DNA from: Streptomyces sp. SID3343
GTDB taxonomy: Bacteria > Actinomycetota > Actinomycetes > Streptomycetales > Streptomycetaceae
Length of the DNA stretch: 64,000 nt
Reading direction: 5' to 3'
NCBI RefSeq assembly: GCF_009865215.1
Contig: NZ_WWJX01001298.1
Coordinates: 1 to 64,000, forward strand
The stretch's first letter is position 1. Each line of letters starts with the position of its first letter. Positions 48,070-63,116 of this stretch are shown in pieces. A program made the translations under genes and the position numbers. The notes under the pieces are model-generated. The model was not told where the DNA came from, ran no database searches, and saw only the letters and a list, made by a program, of their open reading frames with translations.

Positions 48070-48141
48070 GCCCCTGTAGCTCAGGGGATAGAGCAACGGC
48101 CTCCGGAGCCGTGTGCGCAGGTTCGAATCCTGCCAGGGGCA
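48070..48141 (+). tRNA. tRNA-Arg, anticodon CCG
   Basis: A 72-base cloverleaf: acceptor GCCCCTG/CAGGGGC, D arm GCTC/GAGC, anticodon stem ACGGC/GCCGT with loop CTCCGGA, T arm GCAGG/CCTGC with loop TTCGAAT, discriminator A. CCA is not encoded. It reads CGG codons. Its 3' 43 bases are the attachment site of two integrative elements, and integration restores the gene. Confidence 0.97.
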
Positions 48142-48146
48142 CACAG
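48099..48146. repeat. attL of element 1 (48-bp direct repeat)
   Basis: Runs from the anticodon-stem end of tRNA-Arg through its 3' end and five bases beyond (ending GGCACACAG). Identical to 57,987-58,034 over 48 bases, then diverges on both sides. Confidence 0.95.
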
Positions 48147-48350: not shown

Positions 48351-49724
48351 TCAGTCGGTGTCGCGCAACAGGTCGTCCACCTTCGCGTTGTTGATCTCGT
48401 CTCGGCCGTCGAGGCACTTCACGTAACGACTCATGAGAACTTCCACCGAGTTGCCTGCACGGCGGGCGACTTCCGCCGGATCCATGCCCGCGTTGAGCCA
48501 GGACGACAGCGCGGCGTGCCGCAGGTCGTACGGCGTGCCCGCGAGCGGTGACGCCACCTGTGCGGGAGTGAACGCCATTCGCCGCGCCTCCTCCCAGGCC
48601 CGGGAGTACGTGGACGAGCCGAGGACGCCGCCTCGTTCGTTGCCGAAGACGCGCCCGTCCTGAACCGGGAATCTGGCCAGATGGAACCGCAGCATCGTCA
48701 CCAGGACGGGCGGAATCGGCACCTCCCGAACCTCCGCATCCTCTTGAGGACGGTTCTTCAGGCCCCGATCGTCGTGGACGTCGCCCGAGTCGGTCCAGCG
48801 CTTCCCCGCGGTCGGTCGTGTCTTGCGGAGGGAGAGCACTCCCCAGCCCGTCACGGGTAGCTTGCAGTCGATCGCGCGGAGGCCAACGGCTTCAGCCGGA
48901 CGCAGGCCGCCGTAGTACATGCACCCGAACAGCGCGACCAGGCGACGCCCCCGAGCACGCCCGAACGACCCGACGTACGTCAACGCGGTGAGCAGCTCAC
49001 GCGCCTGCTTCGGGTTGACGACGACCCGGCGGTCCACCTGCTTGACGACCCTGGGTGCAGACGACTTGATCTTGTCGATGGGGTGCTCGGAAAACTCGCC
49101 CAGTTCGACCGCGTGACCAAGAGCCCCGTACAACACGGAGCGCTTGCGCCGGACCGTCTCGGCAGCCGCCGGGCGCCCGGACTGCTTCAGGGCCAGGGCA
49201 CCGAGCAGCGCGCGAACCTCGGCCGGCTCTTCCAGAACGACGAGCGGGCGCGACGCCTTCCCCACCCAGTGCAGCGCGTTAGCGATGTCGGTCGGCATCT
49301 CCGGTCGCGTCTCCGAGGCGACGAAGGCCCAACCGCGCAGAGCACGGCGCAGCGTGTCAGGTGTGGGTCTGCCGGGTCGGTCCTCCAGCAACGCCAAGGT
49401 GGCCCCGGTCAGCGTCTCGCTGATGCTGTCCCTCGAATTCGCGGCAGCGAACGGCCACTTCAGTGCGGCGTACGCACATGCGAAGTCGTACCAGGTGCCC
49501 GACGCGACCACCGGCGCCATCGAGTCCGGCAGCCCCGAGACCGTGTCGAAGGGTTCGCCGTTCTTGGACGCGGTGAGCAGCTTTGCCCGGAAGGCGTCGG
49601 CGAGCCCTTTGGTTCGGAACGTCGCGGGGAAGATTTCCTCTCCGACCTTCCAACGAACCTCATACGAGGTCTTGGCGGTCGGACGCTTGCGGATGCCCCA
49701 GATCCGGACGTGAAAGGACTTCAC
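48351..49724 (-). CDS. int: Tyrosine recombinase integrase of element 1
   Basis: A 457-residue phage-type integrase. The catalytic set is visible: Arg in GGLRPAEAVGL, His-x-x-Arg type box in YDLRHAALSSWLNAG, later His/Asn position in ARRAGNSVEVLMSRY, with the nucleophile Tyr at its end. The N-terminal part (VRIWGIRKRP) is an arm-binding domain. The start is GTG at 49724, overlapping the excisionase stop as GTGA; the frame stays open a further 24 bases upstream but that start lies within xis. It would recombine attP with the tRNA-Arg site. Confidence 0.93.
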   Translation of the reverse strand: MKSFHVRIWGIRKRPTAKTSYEVRWKVGEEIFPATFRTKGLADAFRAKLLTASKNGEPFDTVSGLPDSMAPVVASGTWYDFACAYAALKWPFAAANSRDSISETLTGATLALLEDRPGRPTPDTLRRALRGWAFVASETRPEMPTDIANALHWVGKASRPLVVLEEPAEVRALLGALALKQSGRPAAAETVRRKRSVLYGALGHAVELGEFSEHPIDKIKSSAPRVVKQVDRRVVVNPKQARELLTALTYVGSFGRARGRRLVALFGCMYYGGLRPAEAVGLRAIDCKLPVTGWGVLSLRKTRPTAGKRWTDSGDVHDDRGLKNRPQEDAEVREVPIPPVLVTMLRFHLARFPVQDGRVFGNERGGVLGSSTYSRAWEEARRMAFTPAQVASPLAGTPYDLRHAALSSWLNAGMDPAEVARRAGNSVEVLMSRYVKCLDGRDEINNAKVDDLLRDTD

Positions 49725-49912
49725 GGCCGCTCCAGGTGGTTCAGCCACGCCGTGAAATCCGAGCGCCAGATGCGTAGTTCCTCGTTCGGCAGCTTGAATG
49801 CGGCCGGGGCTTTGCCGAGTTCACGCCAGCGGTAGAAAGTCCGCCGAGAGATCCCTTTGAGTTCGGCACAGACTTCCTTGACCGTCATCATCTCGTCGCT
49901 CTTTCCGCTCAC
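49721..49912 (-). CDS. xis: Excisionase of element 1
   Basis: A 63-residue MerR/HTH-17-type DNA-binding protein: MTVKEVCAELKGISRRTFYR, WRELGKAPAAFKLPN, RSDFTAWLNHL. It directs Int to excise the element. It starts with GTG overlapping the rep stop (GTGA) and ends overlapping the int start. Confidence 0.9.
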   Translation of the reverse strand: MSGKSDEMMTVKEVCAELKGISRRTFYRWRELGKAPAAFKLPNEELRIWRSDFTAWLNHLERP

Positions 49913-51300
49913 GCTGCTTCTCCTTCCTGGGCACGTAGGTCTGCGAGTGCTTCACGAGCCGTTGCGGGATCGGGTGTCGCGCTGCGTGCCAGCCAGCTCT
50001 CCCCCGCGCCCAGGCCGCTTCCGACGTAGGTCCAGGACGCGACGACGAGGGTCGTGTCCGGGTCGGGAACAAAGGCCCCCGCAGCCTGCGCAGCAGCGCG
50101 GTTCTTGGCGTCGCACCACGCGGTGCGGGCATCCCGGAGCGCACCGAGGGTGGTCGAGTAACGCCGTGACTTCGTAGAGAAGTGGCCGCGGAATCCGAGC
50201 ATGTGAGCCCAACGGCGTAAGCCGAGATCGGCCAGTTCGGATCGTGCACCGAGCTTCCACGCCGTCCTCACAAGCCGTCGGGCGTGGTCGGTCATCTCGT
50301 GTGCGGCGAGTTCGGCCAGGAGGTGAATGCGGCGATCGAGAGTGCCCAACACCGCCTCACCGCCTTTGGTCGCGTACTTGGCGATGTAAGCGGCAACCGC
50401 CCGATCGGTAAGCGGTGAACCGCCATCGAACGCACGGGTGCGGATGGGTCGAACATCGACCTGTCGGCCCCAGACGAAATGCGCAGGCAAGCCGCCAGCG
50501 AGATTTTCGAAGCCCGGCACACGGGTGCGAAGAACAGCCACGCGAACGGCAGCGTCCAGAAGTTCGACCGTGGCCCAAGCCGGAGGCGGATCGACCATTT
50601 CCCGGTTGGGTCCGTCGATACGAATCACGGCGTGGAAGTGGACCGCACCGCGCTTTTGGAACTCCGCGACCTTCGCGAAGGACACCCGGGCGGATCGCTC
50701 GAATTCCTTTCTGGTCAGGCCGAGTTCGGCGGCGATGACGCGACGCAGGAGGGTGGTGAAGCGTGCCCACAGCTTGCCCGCGTGTGCGTTCCACAGCACG
50801 GCGGCCGTGTAGTCGTACGAGTCCGGGTCGAGGGGCGTGCCGAGTGTGGGTTCGTCGGTGCGGTGGCGGAGTCCGCAGCGGCAGGGGTGCCCGTTGGTGG
50901 GGCGGTTGTGCACGGGCCCGAACGAGGGTGCGGTGAAGGTGGCGAACACGCGGGGATGGGTGGTGACCGTGTCGGGTACGGACTTGCCGCCGGCCAGGCC
51001 CGCGCTGATCAGGTGGTAGGTGTCGCGGCGGTAGGTCTCCGCGCAGGCCGGGCAGCGGGAGGTGCGGCGGTTGCCGCAGCGCACCAGGACACAGCCCGCG
51101 GCGGTGTCGTGCGAGGAGAACGCGCGCAGCACTTCACCGGTCGGTCCGTCGACGTCGAGCCGGGTGCCTTCCAGGCGCACGGGGTTGAGGCAGCCGCCGA
51201 GCTTGGCGAACTGTCGGGCCAGGCCGGGAGCGTTGCCGCCCCGGGAGATCCGGGCGAGGTCTCTGAGCGCAGCGTCGTCGGGGATCGTTTGGAGGGTCAC
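49909..51300 (-). CDS. RepSA-type rolling-circle replication initiator
   Basis: A 463-residue HUH-type initiator. CGNRRTSRCPACAE near residue 75 is the zinc-finger-like region, the metal-binding HUH motif is HFHAVIRIDG, and the nicking Tyr is in AAYIAKYATK. Homologues initiate replication of the excised circle of pSAM2-like elements. The start is GTG at 51300, overlapping the GGDEF gene stop, so production is coupled to that gene. Confidence 0.88.
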   Translation of the reverse strand: MTLQTIPDDAALRDLARISRGGNAPGLARQFAKLGGCLNPVRLEGTRLDVDGPTGEVLRAFSSHDTAAGCVLVRCGNRRTSRCPACAETYRRDTYHLISAGLAGGKSVPDTVTTHPRVFATFTAPSFGPVHNRPTNGHPCRCGLRHRTDEPTLGTPLDPDSYDYTAAVLWNAHAGKLWARFTTLLRRVIAAELGLTRKEFERSARVSFAKVAEFQKRGAVHFHAVIRIDGPNREMVDPPPAWATVELLDAAVRVAVLRTRVPGFENLAGGLPAHFVWGRQVDVRPIRTRAFDGGSPLTDRAVAAYIAKYATKGGEAVLGTLDRRIHLLAELAAHEMTDHARRLVRTAWKLGARSELADLGLRRWAHMLGFRGHFSTKSRRYSTTLGALRDARTAWCDAKNRAAAQAAGAFVPDPDTTLVVASWTYVGSGLGAGESWLARSATPDPATAREALADLRAQEGEAA

Positions 51301-51854
51301 CGGCGCCCCCGGGTGCCCTTGGCTGCGTACATCGCGATGTCCGCGTGGGCGAGGGCGTTCCCGAGCGTGCGAAGAGGCAGATCGGCCACACGTGCGGACC
51401 CGATCGAGACGCCGACCGGGATCACGTGTCCGTCCCAGACGACCGGCGCCCGAAGTCGGTCCCGTAACCGATCGAGGCCAGGCGCCGACTCGTGACCGGA
51501 GAGGCGAACGGCGGCGACGAATTCGTCACCACCCAGGCGCCCGGCGACACCATGAGGTCCGCACCAGGAGGCCAGGCGGTGCGCGGTTTGCGCGAGGACT
51601 TCGTCACCGGCGAGGTGACCGCGGGTGTCGTTGATGTGCTTGAAGCCGTCGAGGTCCAGGAGGAGAACGTACGCATCCGGGTGGGTGACGATCCGGTGCG
51701 CTCGGGCGGTCCAACCGTCCCGGGTGTGCAGGTGGGTGAGCGGGTCGCGGCGAGCGGCGGCGAGGCGACGGGCGAGCCACCACGTGTGCGTGGCCCAGCC
51801 GATCAGAGGTACTCCGGCCACGGACGCGGACAGCGTCGCGTCGGCGAAGGGCAT
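51297..51854 (-). CDS. GGDEF diguanylate cyclase on the element
   Basis: A 185-residue protein with a short N-terminal hydrophobic helix (VAGVPLIGWATHTWW) and a complete GGDEF domain: DPLTHLHTRDGW, the metal and guanine-binding LLDLDGFKHINDTRGHLAGDE, the signature GRLGGDEF (GGDEF at residues 108-112), and the C-terminal VSIGSARV and HADIAMYAAK. All catalytic residues look intact, so it should make cyclic di-GMP. The inhibitory RxxD site that normally precedes GGDEF by five residues is absent (GPHG instead). A GGGAG site precedes the ATG. Its stop overlaps the rep start. Confidence 0.9.
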   Translation of the reverse strand: MPFADATLSASVAGVPLIGWATHTWWLARRLAAARRDPLTHLHTRDGWTARAHRIVTHPDAYVLLLDLDGFKHINDTRGHLAGDEVLAQTAHRLASWCGPHGVAGRLGGDEFVAAVRLSGHESAPGLDRLRDRLRAPVVWDGHVIPVGVSIGSARVADLPLRTLGNALAHADIAMYAAKGTRGRR

Positions 51855-51962
51855 GTCATCTCCCGAGAGGCAGGGGAAGGGGAGCCCCGGACCGGTAGAG
51901 CGATTCGGTCCGGGGCGGCGAGCGGGATGTGGCGAGGTTTCAGGGGCAAGGTCCGCGAGTGG

Positions 51963-52130
51963 TCAGCGGACGCCCTTGCCCGTGCACAGCGGGCACTTCT
52001 CGCGCCCGGGGATGATCGTGGTGTGGCCGTCGATGGTCCGCACGCACTTGACGCGACGGGTACCGACGCCCTCACACGACGAGCAGCGGCGCGGCGGGAC
52101 CCGCCGGGTGGCGGTGGACGAGGCACTCAC
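51963..52130 (-). CDS. Zinc-knuckle microprotein (CxxCxGxG pair) 1
   Basis: A 55-residue basic protein with two DnaJ-type half-motifs, CSSCEGVG and CPLCTGKG, about 30 residues apart. Four cysteines in two CxxC pairs fit one zinc site. The start is GTG at 52130, overlapping the next small gene's stop as GTGA. No function is known to me. Confidence 0.7.
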   Translation of the reverse strand: MSASSTATRRVPPRRCSSCEGVGTRRVKCVRTIDGHTTIIPGREKCPLCTGKGVR

Positions 52131-52249
52131 CGCTTGCCCGTTCCCTTGCACGTGGGGCAGTTGACGCGCCGGGTGGCGCGGTTGCCACGTCGTCCACCGG
52201 TGATGACGAGGGCACGGCCTTGGCCGCCGCAGTCCGGGCAGTGGGTCAT
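52127..52249 (-). CDS. Zinc-knuckle microprotein 2
   Basis: Only 40 residues: MTHCPDCGGQGRALVITGG, then CPTCKGTGKR. Two CxxCxGxG motifs with a basic linker. The ATG at 52249 has AGGAGA eight bases ahead, which supports translation of so short a frame. Confidence 0.7.
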   Translation of the reverse strand: MTHCPDCGGQGRALVITGGRRGNRATRRVNCPTCKGTGKR

Positions 52250-52338
52250 GATGGTGATCTCCTGATCTCTGAAGAGGGGTTGTGGAGCCCGGGGCGACCG
52301 GCGTTCTTGGTCGGATGGACGGTCGCCCCGGGGCGGAT

Positions 52339-52482
52339 TCAGCGGGTGCGACCGGTGCCGAGGCAGTCGGGGCAGGACCGGGTGCGCTCGTTGCGGCGCA
52401 GGTTGCGTACCGAGCCGGGCATGGTCTCCTTGGCTGCCATGCGGACGCTGCCCTTGCCCTTGCAGTTCGTGCACTTCGCCAT
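52339..52482 (-). CDS. Zinc-knuckle microprotein 3
   Basis: 47 residues: MAKCTNCKGKGSVRMAA, then SCPDCLGTGRTR. Same two-motif plan as its neighbours, with a longer basic linker. The ATG at 52482 follows AAGGAG at a spacing of six. Confidence 0.7.
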   Translation of the reverse strand: MAKCTNCKGKGSVRMAAKETMPGSVRNLRRNERTRSCPDCLGTGRTR

Positions 52483-52969: not shown

Positions 52970-53164
52970 TCAGCGGGTCTTGCAGCGGTGGGTGCGGGCG
53001 GCGAGTTCGGCGGCCGGGCGCTGGTCGAACTCGTAGGTGGCGGACCAGCCGCAGTCCTTGGCGGTGCATACGGCGGTGTGGCGGACGATGCCGCGCGCCT
53101 CTCGCCGGGTGCCGACCTGGACCGGGCCGATGCGCTTGACGTCACGGAACTTGCGGATGAACAC
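52970..53164 (-). CDS. Mobile element transfer protein family
   Basis: 64 residues: RKFRDVKRIGPVQVGTRR, HTAVCTAKDCGWSATYEF, AAELAARTHRC. This matches the short family annotated in streptomycete integrating plasmids as mobile element transfer protein, with CxxxxC and a C-terminal Cys as a possible zinc site. Role in transfer is by association. Confidence 0.75.
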   Translation of the reverse strand: MFIRKFRDVKRIGPVQVGTRREARGIVRHTAVCTAKDCGWSATYEFDQRPAAELAARTHRCKTR

Positions 53165-53179: not shown

Positions 53180-53857
53180 TCAGAGTTGGGAGTGGATGGA
53201 GTCGGCCAGGGATTCGGGCACGCTCAGCCGCGCGCGAAGCACGTCTGCGGTGATCGGATCGCCAGTCGTGGTGTGGTGCTGTTCGGCGATGCGCCGGGCG
53301 TGATCCAGCAGGGCCGGGGCGATCCGGACGGCACCGACAGGCAGCGCCGGAGGTTCCGGAACGGCAGCGACAGGCGGGAGTTCGACGTTCGGCGTGTCCG
53401 GGACGACTTCGGCGACCTCTACAGCAGGCGCCGGATCGGGCACGGGTGCGGGTACGGGTTGCGCGTCGGTCGGTTCGTTGCGGTGGGCCAGGAGCGTGCC
53501 GCCGAGGAACGCCACCGCGGGCCATCCGGCGACGATCAGCCGCAGCCACGCGGGAACGTGCTCCAGGTCGAGGAGACCGGCGGTGGCGACGTTCGCCCCG
53601 AGCGAGGCGACCAGGGCCACCAGGAACCACAGCCACGGCCCACCGGTCCCCAGCGACCCGTTCGAGGACTGCGCGATCCGCAGCCGACGCCAGGACGCGA
53701 CCAGGAGCAGATCCACCGAGATCGGGTAGGCCCACGCCTGCCACCCGGACTGGCCCGCCGCCTGGGCGACGTCGTGCAGGTGCGAGAACGAGAGCGCCCC
53801 GGCGATCCCCGCCTGAATCAGCAACGGATCGAACCGCACGCGCAGGACACGGCGCAT
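53180..53857 (-). CDS. DUF2637 membrane protein, SpdB-like
   Basis: A 225-residue protein with the DUF2637 pattern: FDPLLIQAGIAGALSFSHL, WAYPISVDLLLVASWRRLR, then further membrane helices to about residue 125 and a Pro/Ala/Val-rich cytoplasmic tail. The family includes spread proteins of conjugative streptomycete plasmids. ATG at 53857, five bases into the gap after the next zinc-knuckle gene's stop. Confidence 0.75.
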   Translation of the reverse strand: MRRVLRVRFDPLLIQAGIAGALSFSHLHDVAQAAGQSGWQAWAYPISVDLLLVASWRRLRIAQSSNGSLGTGGPWLWFLVALVASLGANVATAGLLDLEHVPAWLRLIVAGWPAVAFLGGTLLAHRNEPTDAQPVPAPVPDPAPAVEVAEVVPDTPNVELPPVAAVPEPPALPVGAVRIAPALLDHARRIAEQHHTTTGDPITADVLRARLSVPESLADSIHSQL

Positions 53858-53861
53858 CGGT

Positions 53862-54044
53862 TCACGCCCTCTTCGCGATGGATTCGACGCACGTCCCGAA
53901 GCAGGCCAGGCACATGCCGTCCTGCTTGCCGACCGCACGGCGCTTGGAGCCCCGGCCGACGTACACGGTCGCGGGGACGACACCGGTGCCGTTGCACACC
54001 GGGCACTTGCGGACCTTCGGACGCCGGGGGGCCATCGTGATCAC
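53862..54044 (-). CDS. Zinc-knuckle microprotein 4
   Basis: 60 residues with CPVCNGTG near residue 14 and CLACFGTC near residue 45, again two DnaJ-like half-motifs, the second slightly degenerate. Starts with GTG at 54044 overlapping the upstream stop (GTGA); an ATG at 54035 is an alternative. Confidence 0.65.
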   Translation of the reverse strand: MITMAPRRPKVRKCPVCNGTGVVPATVYVGRGSKRRAVGKQDGMCLACFGTCVESIAKRA

Positions 54045-54330: not shown

Positions 54331-55692
54331 CTACGGGGCCTTCACGGTGGCCGGTACCGGAGTGGCCGCCAGGGTCACCGACGGAGCGAACGGTGCCAGC
54401 GAGGGCATGTCCGGGACCATGTGCGCGTACTCGACACAGGCCCACGAGACGTCGGCCAAGTCGTGCTCCGGAGTGCGGATGTGGGTCCACCCACCCGAGG
54501 TGTCCGCAGCGACGGCCGTTCCCGGACGGTCCGCGTGGATCGCCGTTGCCGCCATCACGGCGTCGTCACCGATGTCCGCGAGCGCCATCCGCGCCGAAGC
54601 TTCGTCGTTCACGCGATGACACACCCGACCGGTGAGTTGGGCCCGGAGCATGGTCGCGCCGTTGCCCAGTTCAGCGCCGAACCGTTGCCCGCACGCCTCC
54701 AGGTAGATCCCCGCCGCGCGGCCGAGCTGCGCGAGACGGATCAACGCGTTGACGATGCGTTGGCGACGCTTTTCCTCCTCCTTGCCACCGGCCGTCAGGA
54801 AGAGTTCGGCGATCTCGTCGAGCAACAGCACGATCGGCGGAGGCCGTTCGTCCTTCGGCAGACCCCAGATGTCGGAGGTGATCTCCGCGTCTTCGTCGTC
54901 CAGGGAGAGGCCCTGTGAGCGGCGGATCAAGAGGTAACGGTCCTCCATCTCGTCAACGAGGACGTTCAGGAGGTTTTCCGCCAGATCGGGATCGGTGGCC
55001 AGCGCGGACAGGCGCGGGGCGAACGGGGCCAGTTCCACGCCCCACTTGCAGTCGATGCCCACCAGCGCGACCGGTTGCGGCGCGATGCCGCGGACGAGCG
55101 CCCGCTGATACATCGACTTGCCCGACTGTGTCGCGCCGAGCACCAGTTCGTGAGGCACCGATCGGAAGTCCCGCACGTGCGGTAGACCGTCGATGCGCAG
55201 CGCGATCGGCACCCGAAGGAAGTCGCTACGGACGCGAGGCATGCGCACGTCCTTGAGGACGTCCCGGCCGAGGACGCGCAGTTCCACCCAGCCGGATTCG
55301 ACCGAGCGCACATGCACCGCCTGAACACCCCACGCGTGGCGCAGCCGATCCGAAGCCGCGGTGAAGTCGGACGGGTCCTGCCCCGGGCGCATCCGCAACC
55401 GGATCGTGAACCCGCCCGTGTTCGGCCGCAGCCGTCCCCGACGAGGCGTCGCCGGCACCGGGGACGTATTCCGCAACCGAGCGGACGCCCGAGCCCGACG
55501 CGAAGGAGTCGCCGTCAACCCGCACGAGTCCATGACGTCCCGGTAGGTCAGGTGCATCCGCGCCACCGTCGTCGGCAGACCGATCACCGACCAGTGCACG
55601 GCCGGGAAGCGGTGACGAGCCAGGCGCGCGCCCCCGACCACCGCGGCGGCCGGACCACCCACTCCCACCACGGCCGTCAGCAGCTCAGACAC
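54331..55692 (-). CDS. FtsK/SpoIIIE-type DNA transfer ATPase of element 1
   Basis: A 453-residue Tra protein. Walker A is GATQSGKS, Walker B is IVLLLDEIAEL, and RAAGIYLEACGQR follows. The N-terminal part has only a short hydrophobic stretch, so membrane anchoring is weaker than in FtsK. TraB-type proteins of this group move double-stranded plasmid DNA between hyphae. It ends 84 bp upstream of the next gene. Confidence 0.9.
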   Translation of the reverse strand: MSELLTAVVGVGGPAAAVVGGARLARHRFPAVHWSVIGLPTTVARMHLTYRDVMDSCGLTATPSRRARASARLRNTSPVPATPRRGRLRPNTGGFTIRLRMRPGQDPSDFTAASDRLRHAWGVQAVHVRSVESGWVELRVLGRDVLKDVRMPRVRSDFLRVPIALRIDGLPHVRDFRSVPHELVLGATQSGKSMYQRALVRGIAPQPVALVGIDCKWGVELAPFAPRLSALATDPDLAENLLNVLVDEMEDRYLLIRRSQGLSLDDEDAEITSDIWGLPKDERPPPIVLLLDEIAELFLTAGGKEEEKRRQRIVNALIRLAQLGRAAGIYLEACGQRFGAELGNGATMLRAQLTGRVCHRVNDEASARMALADIGDDAVMAATAIHADRPGTAVAADTSGGWTHIRTPEHDLADVSWACVEYAHMVPDMPSLAPFAPSVTLAATPVPATVKAP

Positions 55693-56152: not shown

Positions 56153-56932
56153 CTAGTCGCCGGCCGGGATCCGGTAGTCCAAAACGAACTTGTCCGCAGC
56201 CATCAACGTGTCGCAGACCTCGACCACTCGGCCCTCATCGGTCACCGCGTTGCGGACGAGATGAAGCACCGGAGCTCCCGGGCTCAGGCCGAGAAGACTC
56301 GTCTCCTGCTTGCTCGCGAGCCGGGCCACGACCGTCTCTGTGTACTCCGCCAGGATGTGCCCATGCTCTTCCAGTCGGGCATAGATGCCACCACCGCCCG
56401 GATTCTCGGCGAACAGTTCCGGGATGTCCTTTGCCACGTCCCACGGCAAGTAGGACGAAGCAACCTCGGTCGGAACACCGTCCGTGAAGTAGAGGCGACG
56501 TCGCTCCAGGACCTGATCCCCGACAGTGACACCCAAGCGGTCTGCCGCATCGGCCGGCGCTTCGGTAGGCCCGATGTACAGCACGTTCACCGAGGGCACG
56601 CCGCCCGCTTGCTCCGTCTCAGCGATGTAGGCAGCTTTGCCGGCTTTCCGATGAGACCGCCTAAAGCGATCGGACGACTTCCTCTTGACCGGCGGTTTTG
56701 CCTTCACGAAGGATCCGCGGCCATGGTGCGTCTCGATCAAGTCGGATGTTCTGAGTTCCGCGACAGCCTTGCGGACGGTCCCACCGGAAACGCCGTATCG
56801 CCCGACTAGGTCCGTCTCACTCGGGAGCAGTTCTCCAGCCTTCAGAATTCCTGTACGGATCTGCTGTGCAAGATCATCGGCGATCTGCACGTACCTCGGC
56901 ACGCTGACTCCGCGCGTGGTCTCACTCCTCAT
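56153..56932 (-). CDS. GntR-family repressor with UTRA domain (KorSA-like)
   Basis: A 259-residue regulator: N-terminal winged helix YVQIADDLAQQIRTGILKAG with LPSETDLVGRYGVSGGTVRK, and a C-terminal UTRA ligand domain (residues about 110-250, VLERRRLYFTDGVPTEVASS). In pSAM2 the homologue KorSA represses pra and so keeps the element integrated. Start ATG at 56932, divergent from the NUDIX gene by 17 bp. Confidence 0.88.
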   Translation of the reverse strand: MRSETTRGVSVPRYVQIADDLAQQIRTGILKAGELLPSETDLVGRYGVSGGTVRKAVAELRTSDLIETHHGRGSFVKAKPPVKRKSSDRFRRSHRKAGKAAYIAETEQAGGVPSVNVLYIGPTEAPADAADRLGVTVGDQVLERRRLYFTDGVPTEVASSYLPWDVAKDIPELFAENPGGGGIYARLEEHGHILAEYTETVVARLASKQETSLLGLSPGAPVLHLVRNAVTDEGRVVEVCDTLMAADKFVLDYRIPAGD

Positions 56933-56949: not shown

Positions 56950-57411
56950 ATGCTCCTCTACATGAGTAACGGTACCGAGCAGGAGCAGTCAACGCCGCGC
57001 CACTCTGTGTCAGTCGCCGGCGCAGTCGTTCGTGCGGACGGAAAGCTCCTGATGATTCGTCGCCGAGACAACGGTCGTTGGGAGCCGCCGGGTGGCGTCC
57101 TTGAGCTTGAGGAGACGGTCGAGGCAGGTGTTGAGCGGGAGATCTTGGAGGAGACCGGCGTATCCGTCGAGGTCGAGCGCCTGACAGGTGTGTATAAGAA
57201 CATGCCCCGCGGCATCGTCGCCCTGTTCTTCCGCTGCCGCCCCGTCGAGGGGGAGGCTGCCCCGACGGAGGAAAGCAGCCAGGTCACGTGGATGACGCCA
57301 GACGAAGCGGCCACGCACATGAACGAGGCATATGCCGTCCGAGTCTTGGATGCCCTGGACGACAGCACCGGGCCACATGTGCGAGCTCATGACGGACGCG
57401 TCCTCGTGTAG
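56950..57411 (+). CDS. NUDIX hydrolase, Pif-like immunity candidate
   Basis: A 153-residue protein with an intact NUDIX box, GGVLELEETVEAGVEREILE followed by ETG. In pSAM2 the NUDIX protein Pif blocks redundant transfer between cells that already carry the element, so this is a candidate immunity gene. ATG at 56950 or at 56962; neither has a ribosome binding site, and a degenerate operator copy spans them, which fits a leaderless, repressor-controlled transcript. Confidence 0.8.
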   Translation: MLLYMSNGTEQEQSTPRHSVSVAGAVVRADGKLLMIRRRDNGRWEPPGGVLELEETVEAGVEREILEETGVSVEVERLTGVYKNMPRGIVALFFRCRPVEGEAAPTEESSQVTWMTPDEAATHMNEAYAVRVLDALDDSTGPHVRAHDGRVLV

Positions 57412-57986: not shown

Positions 57987-58034
57987 GCCTCCGGAGCCGT
58001 GTGCGCAGGTTCGAATCCTGCCAGGGGCACACAG
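57987..58034. repeat. Middle attachment site between the two elements
   Basis: Perfect 48-base copy of the tRNA-Arg 3' half. It is attR of element 1 and at the same time attL of element 2. The upstream tRNA half is absent here, so this is not a functional tRNA. Confidence 0.95.
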
Positions 58035-58152
58035 AGTCAACATCCTCAGCAGCCACGAAGCCTCGTGAGCTGCTGTTTTTGTTTTCCGGCTCTTTTCCCT
58101 CGTGACTCCGTGTGTCACCGCGCGCAGGTGGGTGCAGGCGTAGGACGACCCA

Positions 58153-58171
58153 CGCGTAATCAGCGCGTAAT
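58153..58171. repeat. Paired CGCGTAAT units near the element 2 end
   Basis: Two direct copies of CGCGTAAT (58153-58160, 58164-58171), 11 bp apart, about 120 bp inside the attachment repeat. They occupy the place of the arm sites of element 1 but have a different sequence. Confidence 0.4.
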
Positions 58172-58241
58172 GATCTTGGAGACGTTTCCGCAGGTCACAG
58201 TACGTCTTTGCCGTACGCACGGCGTGACCCGGACACGACGA

Positions 58242-58265
58242 AAGCCCCGAAGCGATCCGGGGCTT
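58242..58265 (-). terminator. Terminator after the element 2 integrase
   Basis: An 8-bp stem AAGCCCCG/CGGGGCTT with an 8-base loop, 20 bp past the integrase stop. Confidence 0.7.
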
Positions 58266-58284
58266 CCTGCCGTCTGACGGTTGC

Positions 58285-59643
58285 TCAGCTCTCGCCACCG
58301 AGGCCGTCCGAGATGCGTTGGTTGATCAGGTCACGCTGTCCGTCGACACACTTGGCGTAGATCTTGAGTAGGACATCCACCGACTGCCCGAGCCGTTCGG
58401 CAACCTCAGCGGCCGGCACGTCGGAGTTGAGCCAGAGCGACGCACAGGCGTGCCGCAGGTCTCACGGTCGAGCTGCGAGAGGCCGAGGCCACCTGTTCCT
58501 CGGTCAGCGCGAGCGTGCGCGCTTCCTCCCACAACTCGGGAGTAGGTGGAGGACGCGAGGACGCCGCGGCGTTCACTCGGGAAGAGTCGGCCGTCGTTCG
58601 CCGTGCCGAACTCTTAGATGTACGCAAGCAGGATCGCAACGACTTGCGGAGAGAGGAATGGGCACGTGGCGCGTGTCCTTCTCCGCCAACCGCTTCAGCC
58701 CCGCTCGTCGTGCGCCTGCCCGCTGTCCGTCCAGGTCTTTCCCGCCACCGGCCGGGTGGTGCGCAGGGTGGGCGAGCCCCCATCCCGAGGTGGGCAGGAC
58801 AGAGTCGGCCCGCCGCAGATTCACTGCTTCCGCCGTGCGCGTACCGGCGTAGTAAAGGACCGCGAAGAAGGCACGGAGACGTCGACCACCGGCCCGCTTG
58901 TGTCCGCCGACGTAGGTCACCGCGGCGAGCAGTTCACGAGCCTGAACCGGGTTGGCGACCGAGCGACGGTCCACCGAAGAAGCCACCATCACGCGCTTGC
59001 GCTTGAGCTTGTCGATCGGGTTCACCGGAAGGTGTTCCAGCTCTACGGCGTAGTCGAGGAGGTTGTAGACGACCGAACGCTTACGGCGAAGCGTCTCGGC
59101 GCCGGCCGCAGTTCCGTCGAGCTTGAGGCCGAGCGCGTCCAGGACGCCGTGAACGGTCTTCGCGTCCGCGAGCCCCGCGATGGGCAACGACCTCTTCTCA
59201 AGCCAGGTGACGGCTTTGGCGACGTCGCCCGGCCGAGGCAGCTGCCGAAGGGCACGGCGCAGAGTCACGCTGTCGGGCCGACCGTCGCTGTCCTTAACAA
59301 GCGCGGGCGGAGCCGTAGCCAACGCATCCGTCATGCTGTCGCGCGACCTCGCCGCCGCACCCGGCCACTTCATATCCATGTACGCGAGCGCGAAGGTGAG
59401 AGCCGACGTCGCCTGCTTGGCCTTCTGCATGGGCTTGGGGAGGCCGCTCTCAAGATCGAACGCTTCGCCGTCCTCAGTGGCCCGGACCAGACGTCCACGG
59501 AACCGATCAGCCAACCCCGACGTGCCGAACGTTGCCGATTGCGGTTCGCCCGCGACCGTCCAAGGCCCCACGAACGACGGCTTCTTGCTGCTCTTGTTCC
59601 GAACCACGGCCCAGACCCGGACCCTGTACGTCTTGTCCGTCAT
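58285..59643 (-). pseudogene. Integrase of element 2, multiply disrupted
   Basis: The N-terminal two thirds read cleanly from ATG at 59643 (overlapping xis as ATGA): YRVRVWAVVRNKSSKKPS through YYAGTRTAEAVNLRRAD. From about 58,785 down the frame shifts repeatedly: segments TLRTTRPVAGKTWTDSG, KRLAEKDTRHVPIPLS, QVVAILLAYI, GRLFPSERRGVLASSTYS, LWEEARTLALTEEQVAS and DLRHACASLWLNSD lie in different frames, with TAA at about 58,613-58,615 and TGA at about 58,468 in the expected coding path. The catalytic Arg, His and Tyr (LLKIYAKCVDG) are all still recognisable. Confidence 0.9.
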
Positions 59644-59849
59644 GCGGCTTCCTCCGCCCGCGTGTCGAGCCACTCCGCGAACGCCCTTCGCGTAACGCCC
59701 AGTTCGCCGTTGGTGAGTTTGTGGCAGGCCGGCGCCAGGCCGAGTTCACGCCAGCGGTAGAAGGTCCGGCGGGAGAGGCCGCCCAACATTTCGAGGACTT
59801 CCGGAACCGTCAGGAGTTCGACATCCGGGATCTTGGTCTTCCTGGTCAT
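59640..59849 (-). CDS. xis: Excisionase of element 2
   Basis: A 69-residue MerR/HTH-17-type protein: LLTVPEVLEMLGGLSRRTFY, WRELGLAPACHKLTNG, TRRAFAEWLDT. Parallel to the element 1 excisionase, with which it shares the RRTFYRWRELG core. ATG at 59849; end overlaps the integrase start. Confidence 0.88.
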   Translation of the reverse strand: MTRKTKIPDVELLTVPEVLEMLGGLSRRTFYRWRELGLAPACHKLTNGELGVTRRAFAEWLDTRAEEAA

Positions 59850-61414
59850 GCCGCCCTCCCCCCGGGCAGTTGCCGAATTGTCGAGCGCCCCATCCGCACG
59901 CCTGGCGCCACCGCACCCGCTCAGCGACCGCCCGAAGGAGCCGATGCGACAGCGGAGCAACGTCCGGGTCGTCACGGCCGACCTGGGCCCACATGAAGCG
60001 CGTCGGATCCGGAATCTCGGCCGCATCGCCGATGAGTTCGAGCACCCATGCCCGCCGCTCCGTCTTGTGGTCGGCCATGGTCTTGCCAGACCACTTGCGC
60101 GAGACCAGCACGCGCCGACCGCCGTAACCGAGGTGTGTCCGACGATGGGCCTTCGCCTTGCAACACCCCGGACACAGGCCCGCACGGACGTTCTTGGGCT
60201 GGACCCCGTACAGCAGCCAGTTCGCACAGGTGGGCGCGCAGGGCTCGTACCGCAGCGCGATGGTTAGCCTGCCCACGTGCGCGTTCTGCGCCCCGTTTTG
60301 GGCCTCGTGTGTCTCGTGTGCCGACTTGTCGAGGTACTTCGTCAGGTAGCCGATGCACCGCCGCGCATCGGGCGAGCCGACCAGGACGCCTTTCGCGTCC
60401 ACTTGAGTCCCGAACCACGCCCCGTGCACCGGCTCGTCCCCGACGTCGTCCAACGCCTCATCCCACGAGGGAAGTTCGACGCCGGCAGACGGACCGAGGT
60501 ACGCCCCGATCTCCGCATCCCACACCGGCGCGTTGTCGACCGAGTAGACCGGCTCGTCACACGCCGGCCACCACACCTGGTGACACGTCGCCGCCGCCAC
60601 CTGCCGCAGTTCGGCCCGCGACACCGTGCCACGGATCGCCAGATGAACATGCGGAGCCAACCGCCGCTGATACTCCACCGCGGCGAAGTACTGCACGTCG
60701 AAGCCCACCAGACGCCGCAGGTTCTGCACGAACCGATCGACCAACTTCGAGAAGTGCAACGCGTCCCGAGCAGGCCCGATAGTCGTACGCCGACGCGTCC
60801 ACCGGAGTCCCGTCACCACGCACCCGCCCGTACGAGGGCAAGGTGAGTGTGACGAACAACGACGGCCGGAACACCTTGCCGTCCGGCGACGTGTACGCCT
60901 TGCCGACTGTGCGCGCCTCGACCTCACGCCGAGGCAGATCCGGAGCATCCTGACGCCGCCGCGTGGACCGCACCCGCCGCACGATCGGATCCGGGTCGAT
61001 GTTGCCCCGCGCCCCGGACTCGGCCAAGTCCTCGTCGACCGCCGCCAAGTCCTCAGCGAGTTCGTCCCGCTCGTCATCGCGCGCAAGGTCGTGCTTCTTG
61101 GTCCAGTCCGCCCGCAGTTCCGCCAGGACACGTTGATCACTCGTCGGCTCGTCAGCCTCCTGAATCGGCTCCTCGGTCAGGTGCCACCCCTCTCGACACC
61201 GAGCCATCCGCAACCGCCGCTTGCGCTCCGCACAGGTCGGACACACGCCCGCCAACGTCGCCCCGCACGGCACGTCGATCACGGCCGTCTCACCGGTCAC
61301 GATGTCCGTACGCCGCAGGGCAACCGGCCGGACAAAGACACCGTGCTCCTGAGCCACGGCCCGCACGACATCCCGAGCGAGCAGCATCCGAGCACGCTCA
61401 GCATGCGTACTCAT
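59846..61414 (-). pseudogene. Replication initiator of element 2, frameshifted
   Basis: From ATG at 61414 the frame reads STHAERARMLLARDVVRAV, a CPTCAERKRRLRMARCREGW zinc region and VDASAYDYRA, then shifts by one base at about 60,773. The next frame continues ARDALHFSKLVDRFVQNLRR and holds the HUH motif PHVHLAIRG and the Tyr motif GYLTKYLDKS. One extra base in GCCTGCTCGG explains the break. Near the 3' end a further shift at about 59,930 would let the protein end RQLPGGRAA with its stop overlapping the xis start (ATGA); this second break is less certain. Confidence 0.8.
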
Positions 61415-61749
61415 CGCCCACTCCGATCGAGCAGCGTCCACGCCCGCACCGGATGACCGTGAACAGTGCCGGCCACCTCGATATGCGTGTGGTCCCCGAG
61501 GTACACGTCAGACCGGTCGGAGTGGGTCGTGACCGCGTCGTCCAGCGCCGAGGCCCAACGGTCCATGTCCCGGGTGGAGGCCCGGAACAGGTGGATCTTG
61601 ACCGTCCAGAGCCGATCGACGTGCGACCAGTCGACTTCGAGCGCGGTCATCGCGGGCAGGATCGGGCGAGCGCCGATGAAGTCGGCCACGCAGCGCAGCA
61701 CGGTCACGCCGCGGCCCATGTCCACGGGGTCCATGTCGTTGTTGTTCAT
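61411..61749 (-). CDS. Hypothetical protein of element 2
   Basis: 112 residues, starting MNNNDMDPVDMGRGVTVLR with VDWSHVDRLWTVKIHLF. No family recognised. It is coupled by ATGA to the transfer ATPase upstream and to the initiator downstream, so it belongs to the replication-transfer operon. Confidence 0.65.
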   Translation of the reverse strand: MNNNDMDPVDMGRGVTVLRCVADFIGARPILPAMTALEVDWSHVDRLWTVKIHLFRASTRDMDRWASALDDAVTTHSDRSDVYLGDHTHIEVAGTVHGHPVRAWTLLDRSGR

Positions 61750-63116
61750 GCCGCACTCCCGAAGCCGCCGCCGGAACGCCCGTAGTCGCGCACCATCGCC
61801 TCGATCGCCTCGTCCGAGACGAACGCCGCCCGCACCCGCACCGGTTCGGGTTGCGTCTCACGCTTGACGTAGCCCACCCCCGCACCGATCTCCGGATCCG
61901 GAGAGATCAACTCAGCCGCCGCACCCCGCTCCCGAGCACCGTTGCCCAAGACCATGTCGACCTGATTCGGCTCGTCGAGCCGCAGCGCGATCCGATCCGG
62001 GAACAGGTTCCGGATGTTCATGACCTCCTTGCGCGGATCCTGCAAGGCCCCGATCACACAGAACCCGACCGAACGCCCCTGACTGGTGAGCGTCGCAATC
62101 GCCGCATCCGCACGCTTCCGCAGATCCCGATCCGGCTGATACGCCGTCAGGAACGCCAACTCGTCCACGATCACCACCACGAACGGGCACTTCGACGAGG
62201 GTTCGTGCTTGCGGACCTTCCCCGCGAAGGTCTGCGCCCGCCGGTTCATCTCGGCCGCAGCAGCCTCCAGCAACTCGACCATCGCCGCCGGCTCACACGC
62301 GTACCGCTGAAACAGCGACCGCCCGAACGACAGTTCCATCCGCATGGGATCACACGCCCACAACTGCACGATCCCCGCCCGAGCCGCCGGCAGCAGCGCC
62401 CGAACGACACCCCACAGCACCGAGCCCTTGCCCGCCCCGGTCACCCCCGCTACCAGGACGTGTGTCCCGTGCAGCCGCAGCCGCCACGGCGACCCGTCGT
62501 CACACCGCCCGATCTCCGCCGACGCGAACTCGGGCACCCAAGGGTCCTCACGCTCAGGAGTGGTGCGCCCGTACCGCAGCACCGCAAGCCCCGCCGCACG
62601 CTTGACCACATCCCCGACAGAGGGCATCAGAGGAGCCTCGAACGGCACCGCCAACGGATCCGTGAACCAGACCCGCAGCACCACGACTCCACGCGCCGGC
62701 GACGACGCCTCCACCCGGAAGACATGCCAGGTGTGCGCGATCCCCTCCACGTGATCACCGAGGTTCTTCGGCACCTGTCCCGGCAGCAACGACACCGTCA
62801 CGTCGAAGCCCAGTTCATGCCGCCGGATCCGCACGATCCGCGGATACCGATACTCGAAGGTCTCGTCGATCCGCGACACCGGCTCCTGCTGCCACGCCCC
62901 GATCGCCTTCGTCAACGCCGGCCACCCACGCCGCACCCGCGCCGCGAACGAGAACAACCACCACCAGACGAACACCACCCCGGCGGTCAGGTAGACCGCG
63001 ACGAGCAGATCCGAGGCGACGGCACCGGCCTTCGCCCGCACCGCCTCGAAGACCACCCACAACACGGCCACAAGTAAGGCCCAAATCCGAACCACGGGCC
63101 GATGGAAAATGTGCAT
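61746..63116 (-). CDS. FtsK/SpoIIIE-type DNA transfer ATPase of element 2
   Basis: A 456-residue protein with two N-terminal membrane helices ([16 protein letters not shown] and VAVYLTAGVVFVWWWLF), Walker A GVTGAGKG, Walker B VVVIVDELAFL, and a LTSQGRSVGFCVIGALQ sensor region. Better membrane-anchored than the element 1 ATPase and only distantly similar to it. ATG at 63116 is preferred; GTG at 63128 is possible. Confidence 0.9.
   Translation of the reverse strand: MHIFHRPVVRIWALLVAVLWVVFEAVRAKAGAVASDLLVAVYLTAGVVFVWWWLFSFAARVRRGWPALTKAIGAWQQEPVSRIDETFEYRYPRIVRIRRHELGFDVTVSLLPGQVPKNLGDHVEGIAHTWHVFRVEASSPARGVVVLRVWFTDPLAVPFEAPLMPSVGDVVKRAAGLAVLRYGRTTPEREDPWVPEFASAEIGRCDDGSPWRLRLHGTHVLVAGVTGAGKGSVLWGVVRALLPAARAGIVQLWACDPMRMELSFGRSLFQRYACEPAAMVELLEAAAAEMNRRAQTFAGKVRKHEPSSKCPFVVVIVDELAFLTAYQPDRDLRKRADAAIATLTSQGRSVGFCVIGALQDPRKEVMNIRNLFPDRIALRLDEPNQVDMVLGNGARERGAAAELISPDPEIGAGVGYVKRETQPEPVRVRAAFVSDEAIEAMVRDYGRSGGGFGSAA

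Follow-up and report, generated by a model that had tools for sequence, protein, structure and literature searches.

The window, by which we mean the whole stretch of 64,000 nucleotides that was analysed, contains a 9.9-kb AICE of the RepSA type, inserted in a tRNA-Arg(CCG) gene and flanked by a perfect 48-bp repeat. Its features are as follows:

48099–48146, no strand: att repeat copy 1, starting inside tRNA-Arg(CCG) (48070–48142) and ending 4 bases beyond its 3′ end
48351–49748, minus strand: int, tyrosine recombinase; PF00589 slightly under cut-off, PHROG 1 integrase E = 8.9e-28
49721–49912, minus strand: xis, HTH_17 excisionase, 63 aa, GTG start
49909–51300, minus strand: rep, RepSA-type rolling-circle initiator, GTG start; PF20199, 500.6 bits
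51297–51854, minus strand: ggd, GGDEF protein (predicted diguanylate cyclase), 185 aa, ATG start; helix 6–34, then a complete GGDEF domain
51884–51916, minus strand: GC-rich hairpin with an 11-bp stem, about 30 nt 5′ of the ggd start codon; z = −2.7 for a 91-nt stretch
51963–52482, minus strand: three very small ORFs lying between ggd and the spread genes, their CxxCxGxG motifs resembling DnaJ-type zinc fingers; none reaches the Pfam cut-off
52970–53164, minus strand: SpdB-family (PF05122) mobile element transfer protein, E = 4.8e-24
53180–53983, minus strand: DUF2637 spread protein, the usual gene 5′ of ggd in related elements
54331–55692, minus strand: TraSA/TraB-type FtsK translocase; PF01580, 125.5 bits
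55697–56029, minus strand: Pra-like activator of the SCO3933 family; NF051478, 130 bits (cut-off 80)
56153–56932, minus strand: GntR/UTRA regulator in the KorSA position, from profile matches and neighbourhood
56950–57411, plus strand: NUDIX hydrolase in the Pif position, divergent, from a profile match
57987–58034, no strand: att repeat copy 2 at the distal element end, 48/48 identical to copy 1

Int, Xis, RepSA and an FtsK-type Tra protein, the set typical of a RepSA-type AICE, all lie inside the att repeats, and rep retains both its HUH motif (HFH, residue 221) and the YIAKYATK tyrosine motif. Judged from its sequence, the element is apparently a RepSA-type AICE with genes and att repeats intact, and is predicted to be mobile. 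SCO3933 is a Pra homologue (PMC8584621), and Pif is a protein of pSAM2 (PMC3218068). The NUDIX gene, in the position of the transfer immunity protein Pif, also matches the PADLOC candidate PDC-S07 (E = 6.5e-17). A defence role for ggd was dropped because its GGDEF protein had no PADLOC match. Beyond the distal att repeat, a second AICE follows in tandem (58034–62978), with its integrase broken into two frames (58312–59634), xis at 59664–59819, RepSA split over two frames (59923–61372) and Tra at 61782–62978. The integrases of the two elements are about 42% identical, and the exact att sequence is not found a third time before the contig ends at 71407.

The ggd product matches the Pfam GGDEF profile PF00990 with 97.1 bits (E = 1.2e-27; cut-off 23.8). 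Its GGDEF motif occupies residues 108–112, and the positions −9 and −6 before the motif, where RxxD was sought, are both glycine; no AICE copy has R and D there. This confirms the preliminary description of an apparently active protein with an intact motif and no RxxD. Residues D67, K72, N75, D84, GGDE 108–111 and K179, which are active-site residues, are invariant in an alignment of 54 element-borne GGDEF proteins and also among 11 AICE relatives. Thr44 stands where the DPLTGLxNR motif usually has Asn. An AlphaFold2 model (pLDDT 91.8) consists of the N-terminal helix followed by a GGDEF fold, and its top matches in a PDB comparison are GGDEF domains, the best being that of a Thermotoga protein (E = 2.5e-14). 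The prediction that ggd encodes a GGDEF diguanylate cyclase is thus well supported.

As in CdgD-type stand-alone proteins, there is a single GGDEF domain, no sensor domain and no RxxD. A conserved hydrophobic and basic N-terminal helix occupies the place of the sensor domain. This segment carries a conserved PxxGWxxH motif followed by arginines (RR-rich) and is moderately hydrophobic, with a Kyte–Doolittle maximum of 1.22 in ggd and up to 1.81 in relatives. It may act as a membrane anchor or as a dimerising helix.

At each junction of the four genes ggd, rep, xis and int, the stop and start codons share the letters GTGA, preceded by CCG at ggd/rep, AGC at rep/xis and GCC at xis/int, which bears out the overlaps reported earlier. 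The xis/int overlap requires that int begin at the GTG at 49724; the first start given by the ORF finder, 49748, yields a 28-nt overlap instead. In the rep frame, the GTG is the most upstream start codon available. The earlier proposal of a translationally coupled four-gene unit therefore stands for the overlaps of this element but not as a general rule: in 30 measurable relatives the gap between ggd and rep is 310–1,923 nt, and none shows a stop/start overlap. In the relatives this gap usually holds an ORF of about 60 codons with a CxxC...CxxCxGTG pattern, whereas in this element the small CxxC-type ORFs lie upstream of ggd. Because the overlap is absent elsewhere, the coupling is best regarded as a local rearrangement, and the conserved trait as placement ahead of rep on the same strand.

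Around the spread genes there are at least four tiny CxxCxGxG ORFs (51963–52482 and 53862–54035), again DnaJ-type zinc-finger-like and below the Pfam cut-off; the ORF between ggd and rep in related elements encodes about 60 aa with the pattern CPxCDGF...CPACxGTG. Two strong GC-rich hairpins on the minus strand lie among the small genes (52255–52345, 13-bp stem) and immediately 5′ of ggd (51884–51916). Both lack a T-run and are possible attenuators or processing sites. Scans for sigma-70 promoters and terminators gave results near chance, and an Rfam search for a c-di-GMP riboswitch across 44–64 kb returned tRNA as the sole family match.

RepSA is present in 162 of 200 genomes of the family. 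Of 120 other RepSA loci, chosen among the best-scoring matches and each taken with about 6 kb upstream, 12 have a GGDEF gene within 2 kb upstream of rep, all on the same strand. With reps merged at 90% identity and this element included, the gene occurs in 12 of 103 clusters. About 10% of RepSA elements, as estimated from these best-scoring matches, thus carry ggd. At about 7 GGDEF genes per ~11 Mb, the 1.2 Mb examined would hold some 0.8 by chance, in any place and orientation, so the association of GGDEF genes with RepSA exceeds chance within the one family in which it was measured, Streptomycetaceae.

A profile of the AICE GGDEFs gave 33 matches of at least 228 bits in the 200 genomes, including the copy described here. 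In 32 of these 33 close relatives (this element counted; L297 is the exception), ggd precedes RepSA in the same orientation. The usual gene order is NUDIX, GntR, Pra, Tra, DUF2637, GGDEF, RepSA, Int, with ggd nearly always directly after the DUF2637 spread gene. RepSA was found within 8 kb of none of the 19 lower-scoring relatives examined (L300–L318). Taken against this, the constant slot of the close relatives indicates that ggd holds a fixed place in the RepSA element class. A search of other AICEs for a GGDEF gene ahead of RepSA, suggested in the preliminary description, has therefore revealed a recurrent arrangement, and absence from all related elements is contradicted by these relatives. 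When genome contigs were scanned with the single protein, the matches were nothing but general GGDEF proteins from unrelated bacteria, and a phage collection yielded only distant GGDEFs.

In a maximum-likelihood tree, all 58 GGDEF domains from elements group in a single clade (100/98) separate from six host-core domains, the core set being the six GGDEF domains of one host genome. Within the clade there is support for two AICE subclades (10 and 20 rows), among which ggd of this element has a deep, unresolved position. For close pairs (dS below 0.25), dN/dS is 0.11–0.61 (Nei–Gojobori; rough for high-GC genes). In the RepSA-anchored set, 2 of 13 copies are broken, one by an internal TGA (L227/L329, a single genome place) and one by truncation (L248). 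The best reading of these sequences is that ggd is a gene of the mobile element rather than of the host core. A sister group of GGDEF genes is found on streptomycete plasmids and other elements (L300–L318, L088–L094) with different neighbours, namely WhiB, Lsr2, dnaN, HIT, nucleoside deoxyribosyltransferase and MobF relaxase; some lie near Pycsar-effector-family genes.

CdgD of S. coelicolor is the product of sco5345 (PMC7911125), and SCO5336–5349 has been described as an integrated plasmid similar to pSAM2 (PMC3017869). An AICE named Sco5349 has also been listed (PMC3218068). By locus numbers SCO5345 falls inside SCO5336–5349, which places CdgD within the pSAM2-like element; judged from these published descriptions, it appears to be borne on the same kind of element as ggd. 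The preliminary description knew of no worked-out AICE cyclase. Such a case is in fact implied by the two papers together, although the link is not stated in them. In the literature that could be searched, which took in little of the subscription journals and so gives weak evidence, no paper was found that joins the CdgD cyclase with the integrated pSAM2-like plasmid and, in the texts as far as available, none that appeared to link GGDEF or c-di-GMP with Streptomyces AICEs or pSAM2.

According to later papers, CdgD of S. coelicolor has cyclase activity, and its overexpression blocks development (Liu et al., 2019, PMID 31228045, as cited in PMC7026642, PMC7374567 and PMC7911125). CdgDgh of S. 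ghanaensis (SSFG_02343), a stand-alone GGDEF protein without RxxD, has a gene that shares its operon with three others of unknown function; the protein was insoluble in E. coli, and a local micro-compartment was proposed by the authors (PMC7911125). Its overexpression arrested development and lowered moenomycin, while its deletion left morphology normal and raised moenomycin (PMC7911125). In S. venezuelae, development was unaffected by deletion of cdgD (PMC6205966), and CdgD-FLAG could barely be detected. The listed AICE Sgha02332 has a number close to SSFG_02343 but a different replication module (PMC3218068). Linking the two by number proximity is only suggestive.

Cyclic di-GMP holds streptomycete-type bacteria back from sporulation, and ggd is predicted to produce it. 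It seems to us reasonably probable that ggd encodes an element-borne CdgD-type cyclase which is co-expressed with the replication genes and, by raising c-di-GMP, postpones differentiation of the host while transfer takes place; this is the role that we infer for the element. Upon derepression, with a Pra-type activator on and a KorSA-type repressor off, the cyclase would be made alongside the replication and excision proteins, and expression of the operon would determine its output, since it would lack feedback inhibition. The resulting rise in c-di-GMP, either global or near the membrane and septum, would favour BldD–(c-di-GMP) and the RsiG–WhiG block. The donor or new recipient hypha would stay vegetative during replication and spread of the element, so that the growth phase used by these elements for transfer and spread would last longer. 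Two parts of this scheme have precedents: c-di-GMP-bound BldD represses sporulation genes (PMC4151990), and int-xis-repSA of pSAM2 is a single operon activated by Pra (PMC3218068).

The invariant active site, the GGDEF fold, the fixed slot, dN/dS below 1 in close pairs, the separate clade and the CdgD precedent all speak for this reading of ggd. Against it, about 90% of RepSA elements lack ggd, which must therefore be dispensable for transfer, and since elements without it transfer too, it would at most modulate the process. The broken copies, the lack of a developmental effect of cdgD deletion, the barely detectable CdgD-FLAG and the hairpin 5′ of ggd, which could separate the gene from the tra-spd genes, count against it as well. 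The scarcity of ggd, together with the 2 broken copies among 13, would suit a real cyclase carried as passenger cargo in a permissive slot, without benefit to the element, with incidental effects on the host and with copies left to decay. Pseudogenes are frequent among AICE cargo genes (PMC9513070), and the cdgD deletions, being without developmental effect (PMC6205966, PMC7911125), point in the same direction. The slot and strand kept in 32 of 33 close relatives, the invariant active site, the dN/dS values and the element-only clade argue otherwise, and we regard mere cargo as unlikely, though a serious competitor.

A different emphasis would be local signalling, in which the N-terminal helix tethers the cyclase to the membrane or septum and the target of c-di-GMP, or of the protein as such, is the spread and translocation proteins rather than BldD. 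The conserved PxxGWxxH segment with its RR-rich residues, the position of ggd directly after the spread genes and the insolubility and suggested micro-compartment of CdgDgh (PMC7911125) are consistent with this. A hydrophobicity of 1.22 is merely borderline for a transmembrane helix, however, and overexpressed CdgD is cited as causing a global developmental block (PMC7374567), so that we find a purely local action rather improbable. Receptor-type GGDEFs normally retain RxxD and lose GGDEF, and the ggd product shows the reverse pattern. With all catalytic and guanine-binding residues retained, D84 included, and CdgD reported in citing papers to be active, it is very improbable that the protein is a degenerate c-di-GMP receptor or makes another dinucleotide, even though Thr44 replaces the usual Asn and synthase activity is predicted from sequence.

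Building on delayed differentiation, we raise the tentative possibility that this cyclase clade has become a regular but optional component of RepSA elements, with a c-di-GMP pulse in each burst of replication and transfer holding recipient hyphae vegetative and adding to the pock, the retarded zone around conjugating colonies. Pocks are zones of delayed development. If this is true, in Streptomyces the variable gene for CdgD would belong to elements and not to the host, and the cause of growth retardation in conjugation would become testable with a single active-site mutant.

The closest known counterparts of the ggd product are CdgD and CdgDgh, likewise stand-alone GGDEF proteins to judge by their descriptions, CdgDgh being without RxxD. 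Four locus numbers separate SCO5345 from SCO5349, after which the AICE Sco5349 is named (PMC3218068), whereas GTGA coupling to rep is known in the present element only. With pSAM2 and other RepSA-type AICEs, the element shares Pra, a GntR regulator in the KorSA position, TraSA, Spd, RepSA, Xis, Int and a tRNA att site, all in the same order; the pSAM2 operon, however, is described as int-xis-repSA without a GGDEF gene (PMC3218068), and most RepSA elements also lack one. SXT/R391-type ICEs and a Vibrio genomic island (PMC10672970) likewise carry cyclases able to change host behaviour, but element class and hosts are unrelated, and the cyclase genes do not lie ahead of a rolling-circle rep gene. 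The GGDEFs of the plasmids pRVR1, pSLUN2 and pFRL2 fall in the same element-borne clade as ggd, yet are 45–57% identical, with WhiB, Lsr2, dnaN or MobF as neighbours and no RepSA nearby; pCdgG of S. venezuelae is another Streptomyces plasmid GGDEF protein.
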